Shown here one piece after another: positions 40,983-43,492 of a stretch of 64,000 bases of DNA. How positions within the stretch are numbered: the first letter of the stretch is position 1; the number at the start of each line of letters is the position of its first letter. The position numbers and the translations under genes are program-made. The notes beneath the pieces are model-generated. The model saw only the letters and a program-made list of their open reading frames with translations. It was not told the DNA's origin and ran no database searches. Source of the stretch: Marilutibacter penaei (lineage in GTDB: Bacteria; Pseudomonadota; Gammaproteobacteria; Xanthomonadales; Xanthomonadaceae); assembly GCF_014145395.1 (NCBI RefSeq), contig NZ_JACHTE010000001.1:372001-436000 (forward strand), given 5' to 3'.

Positions 40983-41023
40983 GCCATGCAACGGGGCGCC
41001 TAGTCCACGCCCCGTTGCATGGC
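40983..41023 (+). promoter_or_regulatory. Leader stem-loop of subtilase 1
   Basis: GCCATGCAACGGGGCG (40983-40998) pairs perfectly with CGCCCCGTTGCATGGC (41008-41023) around the loop CCTAGTCCA. It ends 198 bases before the GTG. There is no T-run after it. The second subtilase has a stem-loop at the same distance with an almost identical loop but a different stem. Confidence 0.7.
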
Positions 41024-41220
41024 GCAGGGTAACGGCCGCGCATGACGGTTCCATGTGATGCGCACCAGTCCGGGCACCTGATCGCGTTGTGTCGTCAGCC
41101 ATCGCGTACAGGCCCCGCCTTCACGGCGGAACCAGGGGAAAGGCCCAACGCGTTTGCGATCAGACCCGCGGACACGCGTGTACCGCGGCAACACTCAGTA
41201 CAGCCAGTGAGGGTAGTATC

Positions 41221-43116
41221 GTGAATCGCAGAAAGACCATTCTTGCCGCATCCGTCGGCGCCGTGTTGATGCTTGGTGCCGGCCACGCCAGTGCCGCCGA
41301 CGCCGAGCTGCGTCTCGCCAAGGCGCCGATCGAAGGCCGTTACATCGTCGTGCTGAAGGACGACGCCGCCAGTCTCGGCTTCGAGGCCGCCTCCAACAAG
41401 CCCAGCATCTCCAGCGTGGCGCAGTCGTTCCAGCGCAACCGCAGCCGCCGCGGCGGCCGCGGCAACGTCGTCCGGACCTACCAGAGCGCGCTGCGCGGCT
41501 TCGTCGTCGACGCCAACGACGAAGAGCTGGCGCAGATCCTCGCCGACGATCGCGTGGCCTTCGTCGAGGAAGACGGCTACATGCACATCGCCGCGACGCA
41601 GAACAACGCGACCTGGGGCCTCGACCGCGTCGACCAGCGCAACCTGCCGCTGAGCGGAACCTACACCTACAACACCAACGCCAGCGGCGTGCACGCGTAT
41701 ATCGTCGATACCGGCATCCGCGCGACCCACAACGAGTTCAGCGGCCGCATGGGCAATGGCTACACGGCCATCAACGACGGCAACGGCACCAACGACTGCC
41801 AGGGCCACGGCACGCATGTCGCCGGCACCGTCGGCGGCACCACCTACGGCGTCGCCAAGGGCGTCACCCTCCACGCGGTGCGCGTGCTGGGCTGCGATGG
41901 CACCGGCAGCTATTCCGGCATCATCGCCGGCATGGACTGGGTCACCCAGAACCACGTCAAGCCGGCCGTCGCCAACATGAGCCTCGGCGGCGGCGCTTCG
42001 TCGTCGGTCGACCAGGCCGTGGCCCGCATGACCAACGCCGGCGTCACCGTCGTCGTCGCTGCCGGCAACGACAACGGCAATGCCTGCAACTACTCGCCGG
42101 CCCGCGCCGCGTCGGCGATCACCGTCGGCTCGACCACCTCGTCCGACGCGCGCTCCTCGTTCTCCAACTACGGCACGTGCCTGGACCTCTACGGGCCGGG
42201 TTCGTCCATCACCTCGGCGTGGCACACCAGCAACTCGGCCACCAACAGCATCAGCGGCACCTCCATGGCCTCGCCGCACGTGGCAGGCATCGCCGCGCTG
42301 TACCTCGCCGGCAACCCGAACGCGAGCGTGAGCCAGGTGACCAACGCGATCACCAGCAACGCCACCCCGAACAAGGTCAGCGACGCCCGTTCCGGCTCGC
42401 CGAACCTGCTCGCCTACAGCATCTTCGGCGGCGGTACCGATCCGGACCCCGATCCCGATCCGGATCCCACCCCGGGCAGCCTGCAGAAGGGCGTGCCGGT
42501 GAGCGTGAACGGCGCCTCGGGCTCGGAGACCCGCTACACCTTCACCGTGCCGGCCGGGGCCAGCAACCTCAGCTTCAACACCAGCGGCGGCAGCGGCGAT
42601 GCCGACCTGTACGTCCGCTTCGGCGCGGCGCCGACCACCAGCACCTATGACTGCCGCCCGTATCGCAACGGCAACACCGAGAGCTGCACCTTCGCCAGCC
42701 CGCAGGCCGGGACCTGGCACGTCATGCTGCGTGGCTACAGCGCCTTCAACGGCCTGAGCCTGGTGGCGGACTACCAGGGCGGCGGCGGCAACCCGAACCC
42801 GGGCGAGCCGTGCACGGGCTGCGACAAGTACAGCGGTTCGTTGTCCGGGACCGGCAGCTCCGCGGTGCAGCCCAACGGCAACTACTACCAGTCGGGCGCT
42901 GGCGCCCAGAGGGGCTGGCTGCGCGGTCCGGCCGGCACCGACTTCGACCTGGAACTGTACCGCTGGAGCGGCTACGGCTGGACCAAGGTTGCCGAGTCCA
43001 CCACGCCCAGCAGCGAGGAGTCGGTGAACTACAACGGTTCGGCCGGCTACTACTACTGGCGCGTGCTGTCGTACTCCGGCAGCGGCAGCTACGACCTGTG
43101 GCTGGATACCCCGTAA
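41221..43116 (+). CDS. Secreted S8 subtilisin-like protease with PPC and Cys-pair C-terminal domains (copy 1)
   Basis: A 631-residue protein: signal peptide (1-25, cut near HASA), I9-type propeptide (about 35-125; [10 protein letters not shown] ... VAFVEEDGY), and proteinase K-like catalytic domain (about 130-410). The triad is Asp163 (YIVDTG), His196 (GHGTHVAGT) and Ser348 ([12 protein letters not shown]). A DPDPDPDP linker leads to a PPC domain (about 425-530; [13 protein letters not shown]), then a Gly/Asn/Pro linker and a last domain of about 100 residues starting CTGCDKYSG and ending [19 protein letters not shown]. It should be an extracellular endopeptidase. The start is GTG at 41221, with GAGGGT eight bases upstream; an upstream ATG would lack a signal peptide. 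Its neighbour at 43688 is a close paralogue. Confidence 0.93.
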
Positions 43117-43159
43117 GCGGCCCTGCCACCCGCCTTTGATCAGGGCGGTTGGACGTCCA

Positions 43160-43193
43160 CATGAGCCCCGGCCTGCCCGGGGCTCATGCTTTT
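43160..43193 (+). terminator. Terminator of subtilase 1
   Basis: CATGAGCCCCGG (43160-43171) pairs with CCGGGGCTCATG (43177-43188), followed by CTTTTGG. Perfect 12-bp stem with a five-base loop; T-run short. The equivalent hairpin follows copy 2. Confidence 0.75.
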
Positions 43194-43448
43194 GGGCGGA
43201 TGGGGGCGTCGCGGCGTGCCTGGCGGCCGGCGCGGTTCCGGCACGCGATCACGCAACGGGACACCTGTCCCAATGAGGGCGCCTTCCGCCCCGCGCCCCG
43301 AATCCGTGCACTGCGGCGGCTTCGCTCCGGCACTCCGTCTCAGTTACCGCCGCTTTCAGGCCCGAGGCTGAAAGACGAATGACTCATCTGATATTGGTAT
43401 TGGACGCCAGCCTTCGCGGCGCGTTCACTTGGGACGCCGGCCGCGGGG

Positions 43449-43492
43449 GAGCCAAGTGCCGGGTCGCCCCTGTCCAGGCCCCAGCACGGCTC
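43449..43492 (+). promoter_or_regulatory. Leader stem-loop of subtilase 2
   Basis: GAGCCAAGTGCCGGG (43449-43463) pairs with GCCCCAGCACGGCTC (43478-43492): 12 pairs with a two-base bulge (AA) and one mismatch, plus three more pairs (GCC/GGC) closing a CCTGTCCA loop. The loop is almost the same as in copy 1 (CCTAGTCCA) but the stem is different in sequence. It ends 196 bases before the GTG at 43688. Confidence 0.65.

Follow-up and report, generated by a model that had tools for sequence, protein, structure and literature searches.

The leader of the Bacillus subtilis aprE (subtilisin) gene reportedly contains a 5' stem-loop that stabilises the mRNA, a finding that is said to go back to Hambraeus in 2002. 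In E. coli, the ompA mRNA is protected by a stem-loop in its own 5' UTR. The protection of mRNA from RNases by stem-loops is treated in parts of a review (PMC7509114). The leaders considered here belong to two tandem subtilase genes, and no description of them was found, at the level of search results, in the literature on Lysobacter protease untranslated regions or on subtilase/LysR.

Tandem subtilase genes and their leader hairpins

The DNA is a 64-kb window of Marilutibacter penaei, the whole stretch that was analysed (GCF_014145395.1, NZ_JACHTE010000001.1, positions 372,001-436,000, forward strand), and all coordinates are in window numbering. The tandem subtilase genes are called copy 1 and copy 2, and the leader hairpin of each is called H1.

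39578..40633, minus strand: LysR-type regulator, divergent (Pfam HTH_1 2.8e-14, LysR_substrate 6.2e-35)
40983..41023, plus strand: H1 of copy 1, perfect 16-bp stem (GCCATGCAACGGGGCG / loop CCTAGTCCA / CGCCCCGTTGCATGGC)
41221..43116, plus strand: subtilase copy 1, GTG start (Pfam Inhibitor_I9, Peptidase_S8, PPC)
43160..43188, plus strand: terminator-like 12-bp hairpin after copy 1, between both genes (terminator scan, inverted-repeat scan)
43449..43492, plus strand: H1 of copy 2, bulged stem (loop CCTGTCCA)
43688..45580, plus strand: subtilase copy 2, GTG start (Pfam Inhibitor_I9, Peptidase_S8, PPC)
45815-45929, minus strand: sX13 sRNA (RF02232, 68.3 bits, gathering score 50)

The terminator-like hairpin separates the two genes, so copy 1 and copy 2 probably have separate transcripts. 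The gap between them is 571 bases long, holds no ORF of at least 120 aa wholly inside it, and contains H1 of copy 2. Because copy 2 has H1 in this intergenic gap, the hairpin belongs with the protease and not with the divergent regulator. Control of the LysR gene by H1 was rejected, since copy 2 has H1 without any LysR gene adjoining it.

A sequence-only reading had placed the hairpins 198 bases (copy 1, GTG at 41221) and 196 bases (copy 2, GTG at 43688) before the start codons and had described the copy 1 stem as a perfect 16 bp; direct reading of the sequence and, for the stem, folding agree. Its description of copy 2, with one bulge and one mismatch, is to be corrected, as folding gives two 2-base bulges (AA and UC) and one C·A mismatch. 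The H1 segments fold at -33.4 kcal/mol in copy 1 (0 of 200 shuffles as good) and -21.6 kcal/mol in copy 2 (2 of 200), a comparison that flatters them, as the segments were chosen because they are foldable. With loops of 3-20 allowed, no other perfect inverted repeat in the window is as long as H1 of copy 1 (16 bp), and in 12 dinucleotide shuffles of the window the longest such repeat was at most 13 bp. Perfect inverted repeats of 12-14 bp also occur at 5492-5528, 17297-17327 and 62066-62103, with no T-run inside the printed repeat.

A test free of this choice takes the 90 bases that follow the upstream motif TTSACT and compares their best hairpin with those of shuffled versions. Among eight leaders from the genus, copy 1 is the sole one beyond chance (P 0.005); copy 2 (P 0.47), L. 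spongiae (0.36), G002 (0.155), G006 (0.72), G005 (0.80), G003 (0.085) and G001 (0.71) are not. G+C-rich leaders form hairpins easily, and stability alone would therefore not back the earlier reading. Given that only copy 1 is beyond chance, the case for copy 2 and for the relatives is comparative and does not lie in stability.

H1 is not an intrinsic terminator or attenuator. No T-run is found 3' of the hairpin in either copy, and the terminator scan lists neither, in line with the earlier opinion that a plain terminator was unlikely. A comparison of 4227 Rfam families with 40600-46100 gave three matches at E<=1, of which only sX13 reached its gathering score and none fell on the leaders. By eye, sX13 sits between subtilase copy 2 and an ORF resembling DNA polymerase I, and in G001 a more distant subtilase paralogue adjoins an sX13-like stretch (L096). 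H1 also does not behave as a REP-like or mobile palindrome: within its own genome the copy-1 leader matches the two subtilase leaders and its own palindrome on the other strand, the remaining matches being short (E 0.27 or weaker). A leader peptide starting inside H1, at an ATG in copy 1 and a GTG in copy 2, was also rejected, as no matching start was seen nearby in L. spongiae by eye.

Both leaders contain a second hairpin, H3, with CCGCGG arms, recognised from the sequence and the minimum-energy folds.

41166..41188, plus strand: H3 of copy 1, about 20 bases 5' of a Shine-Dalgarno-like GAGGG
43634..43657, plus strand: H3 of copy 2

One pair of H3 varies among C-G, U-A and U-G in five leaders (alignment A6). 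For copies 1 and 2 and G002 the minimum-energy fold includes H3; for L. spongiae and G006 it does not.

Relatives and the conservation of pairing

The genus sample comprised seven genomes, that of M. penaei included, and counterpart leaders were found by DNA search with the leaders. Three of the six other genomes have a counterpart leader with a GTCCA-loop hairpin before a subtilase gene, namely L. spongiae copy 1 (G004; L061), G002 (L062) and G006 (L063); the G002 and G006 contigs stop inside that gene. Common to these leaders are ATTGGACG, TTCACTTGG, a GGGG run, the GTCCA hairpin, a second GGGGAA and the Shine-Dalgarno region. The two loops of M. penaei had been called almost alike, and this likeness extends to a core, GTCCA, kept in all five hairpin-bearing leaders. 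L. spongiae likewise has two tandem subtilases (L061 1-6000, minus strand). Only the start-codon-proximal stretch of the leader is kept before its copy 2, the upstream leader being absent.

Protein search finds subtilase matches in all seven genomes of the genus. The conservation of the stem in relatives, on which the sequence-only reading had hung its claim, holds in L. spongiae, G002 and G006 but not in G001, G003 and G005, where the gene and the upstream block are kept and no GTCCA-loop hairpin occurs at the corresponding place. The differently sequenced hairpins of the latter three leaders were not counted as H1 (P 0.71 in G001, 0.085 in G003 and 0.80 in G005). Over the first 173 residues, the proteins of these three genomes match at 64-71%, compared with 83-84% for L. 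spongiae. As their proteins are more distant, H1 seems to be a trait of an inner clade of one genus.

When 395 genomes sampled from the larger family were searched for the DNA pattern ATTGGACG-N(10-36)-TTCACTTGG, four had it, all of them in this genus. Model R1, trained on four sequences without copy 1, finds strong matches only in the five known leaders over 26 sources (the window and 25 of 70 loci), the next best being the G005 leader (15.1 bits, E 0.41); in the M. penaei genome it returns the same two leader places at E<=1. Over 100 relative genomes, searched with stricter filters at the cost of some weak matches, R1 is strong in 4 and reaches E<=1 in 16. The best other match there, with E 0.0084 per genome, is at chance level for 100 genomes. 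The covariance search of S8 peptidase leaders that had been proposed for finding further members in the family led back, over the 26 sources, to the five known leaders, and as far as was searched H1 is not general to such leaders in the family.

The comparison of stems covers five sequences from about four lineages in one clade of one genus. Alignment A7, a model alignment of the five sequences with 12 stem pairs and 60 cells, was chosen because MAFFT shifts the copy 1 stem one base out of register; being fitted to the structure, it favours pairing. Standard pairs fill 52 of the 60 cells (86.7%) and both-side changes occur in 8 of the 12 pairs (11 cells), figures that 0 of 500 shuffles reach, while the count of further pair types is reached by 4 of 500; in all such counts a single inherited change may be counted repeatedly. 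When the structures are slid by 1-3 columns, 33-48% of cells pair.

Other tests that bear on pairing vary in strength among the five hairpins. In a held-out test, R1 scores copy 1 at 55.0 bits against 35.2 for the sequence-only model R2, a gain of 19.8 bits, with the proviso that any perfect palindrome gains somewhat in such models; the four training sequences gain 13-19 bits from structure by construction. A mutation-count null asks how many of the 12 pairs are kept given the changes per arm, with G002 as reference. Copy 1 keeps 12 of 12 (expected 5.4, P 0.0001), copy 2 10 of 12 (expected 5.6, P 0.009) and G006 9 of 12 (expected 6.3, P 0.06), whereas L. spongiae, with 10 pairs (expected 10.3), has one change only and carries no information. 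Hairpins anchored on GTCCA were also compared with shuffled 20-base flanks, giving 0 of 1000 for copy 1, P 0.012 for G002, 0.024 for G006, 0.088 for L. spongiae and 0.144 for copy 2.

In folds of the full leader, the mean pair probability of H1 is at least 0.92 in copies 1 and 2 and G002. In L. spongiae it is 0.98 or 0.52, depending on the assumed start, and 0.27 in a short transcript from the earlier assumed start. In G006 it is 0.02-0.04 in the full leader but reaches 0.97 when a short transcript is folded from the later start. H1 was not recovered by RNAalifold run over whole leaders on the MAFFT alignment, where the covariation term was unfavourable (+1.24), nor by the fold of the eight-leader MAFFT alignment.

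The earlier statement that the stems change and still pair is upheld by A7, the anchored shuffles, the held-out model and the mutation-count null. H1 is probably a real structural element of the mRNA leader. The structural claim has more behind it than the earlier reader could have known, and what these comparisons describe is a clade-specific leader hairpin with a putative function.

Upstream block and candidate transcript starts

Upstream of H1, both leaders contain a block with near-fixed spacing and variable sequence between its two conserved parts, and it therefore looks promoter-like.

40855..40875, no strand assigned: LysR-type dyad CTTAT-N11-ATAAG, centre 63.5 bases upstream of ATTGGAC
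40913..40959, plus strand: promoter-like block of copy 1, CTCATTTGATATCGGC-ATTGGAC-N18-TTCACT
43399..43429, plus strand: promoter-like block of copy 2, ATTGGAC-N18-TTCACT, with no LysR-type dyad upstream

The pattern ATTGGACN{17,20}TTSACT occurs eight times, in all seven genus genomes, each time in a subtilase leader (reversed control, 0), and the spacers between ATTGGAC and TTSACT in the eight leaders are 18 or 19. By eye, neither hexamer of the block is a good sigma-70 match. A scan of 40600-45950 for sigma-70-like promoters found none, either upstream or downstream of H1, and so lends the position of the start no support.

LysR-type sites usually lie near -65 of the transcript start. The dyad is found without mismatch and at the same 63.5-base distance in four of the eight leaders (copy 1, L. 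spongiae copy 1, G002 and G006); G001 and G003 have it with one mismatch, at 42.5 bases. The shift from 63.5 to 42.5 is 21 bases, or two helical turns. G005 has a three-mismatch form only, at 26.5, and copy 2 has no dyad with three or fewer mismatches. For copy 1, both a divergent LysR gene and a T-N11-A dyad are present, which suggests that the LysR regulator controls copy 1 and that this control has been lost in copy 2. With a start at ATTGG, H1 would lie at about +55, and with one after TTSACT at about +18; in either case H1 would be in the mRNA.

Explanations for the hairpin and comparison with known systems

The explanation that we favour, tentatively and at a little less than an even chance, is that H1 is a stem-loop of the mRNA 5' leader with a drifting stem, kept pairing and a constant loop core, GUCCA, and that it acts post-transcriptionally. 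Five leaders have a hairpin at the corresponding place, and this, the paired changes and the constant loop core speak for it. Transcription would start at or just after the ATTGGAC...TTSACT block, with H1 falling within about the first 20-95 nt of a protease mRNA whose leader may be up to about 260-290 nt long. The copy 1 promoter would be controlled by the divergent LysR-type regulator through CTTAT-N11-ATAAG. H1 would then work on the finished transcript, and its likeliest role, which is the weakest step, would be to protect the 5' part of the leader against 5'-end-dependent decay; the outcome of such shielding could be bulk production of the secreted enzyme. The constant loop suggests that H1 is more than a passive stem and has a binding partner, which could be a protein or lie elsewhere in the leader.

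One very unlikely form of such a partnership is a transcript that starts at ATTGGAC, so that AUUGGAC pairs with the GUCCA loop in a kissing or pseudoknot interaction and is kept out of reach of 5'-end-dependent decay. Each of the five leaders has a single TGGAC, at base 3 of the block; GTCCA is likewise single in four leaders, while G006 has three. The probability that a random 5-base loop motif is complementary to an upstream 5-mer shared by the five is about 0.0075, a post hoc figure. A start at the block would also agree with the position of the dyad, 63.5 bases upstream. However, the block is equally conserved in the three species without the hairpin, which led us to reject this pairing as the main explanation, and both partners are invariant and thus offer no covariation.

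The paired changes had been taken as the product of selection on an RNA structure. The pairing is indeed kept, but the attribution to selection is less certain, since template switching can also create and maintain stems, and a single event of this kind can yield a perfect stem and paired changes, according to PMC8794818. Under template switching during replication, one arm would be copied onto the other with little or no selection on RNA. The perfect 16-bp stem of copy 1 beside bulged relatives resembles a homogenised quasi-palindrome, and by eye copies 1 and 2 differ by paired extra bases, AA and TT in opposite arms. For the perfect stem of copy 1 this is a serious rival; as an account of H1 it seems doubtful, as GTCCA is constant in all five leaders and the lineages hold different paired letters, a pattern that would not be expected from repeated neutral events. 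The constant loop core and the differing paired letters in the other lineages speak for selection. That the structure is one of RNA is likewise supported in part: pairing is maintained, but folding shows no advantage of the plus strand over the minus. Of the two, the minus strand gives the better fold in copies 1 and 2 and G006 and the poorer one in L. spongiae and G002. On the plus strand, G-U accounts for three cells and A·C or C·A for another three, with no strand preference. Pairing alone cannot tell a plus-strand RNA from DNA or the minus strand. An inverted repeat serving in the control region as an operator or cruciform would suit these observations and the position of H1 about 20 bases downstream of a conserved block, but an operator needs conserved arms, and the arms of copy 1 differ from the others at 5-8 of 12 positions per arm, with conservation limited to the loop core and parts of the inner stem. 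A DNA element is for this reason considered unlikely.

Chance hairpins in G+C-rich DNA were already disfavoured and are quite unlikely. Leader by leader, only copy 1 stands out in stability, as would be expected of chance hairpins, but the pairing in A7, the GTCCA-anchored shuffles, the held-out R1 score, the length of the inverted repeat within the window and the mutation-count null all stand against it. It is most improbable that the region around H1 is a landing site for the sX13 encoded beside copy 2, through GGGG runs near the hairpin. Such runs occur in each of the eight leaders, and in Xanthomonas the C-rich loops of sX13 act on G-rich motifs near translation starts, as parts of PMC3771888 describe. 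Yet GGGG is common in such G+C-rich DNA, and the duplexes predicted for the eight leaders do not beat those with shuffled leaders (P 0.07-0.83, by energy only, without accessibility). A section heading of PMC3771888 groups sX13 among the sRNAs of the polA locus, so its nearness to copy 2 is no sign of pairing.

If H1 is part of a working leader, it presents natural stem-loop variants, perfect and bulged, before closely similar protease genes, and leader structure could be compared with the output of secreted enzyme in Lysobacter-like bacteria. H1 is also a clean case for setting selection against template switching as the source of paired changes in a stem.

Among known systems, a LysR regulator with a divergent target promoter and a T-N11-A site resembles this locus in its divergent regulator, its 11-base spacer and the constant distance in four of eight leaders; it differs in that it bears on the promoter, not on the hairpin, and in that copy 2 has no dyad. 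For the hairpin itself, the aprE leader offers the likeness of a subtilase gene with a leader stem-loop, and an ompA-type stabiliser that of a stem-loop upstream of the gene for an exported protein. The aprE leader is shorter than the leader here, and its B. subtilis host has other decay machinery. A stem-loop of the aprE or ompA type lies within a few nucleotides of the 5' end; the candidate starts would put H1 about 18 or about 55 nt from it. By analogy with the aprE leader and ompA, the effect of H1 would most plausibly be on the lifetime of the protease mRNA.
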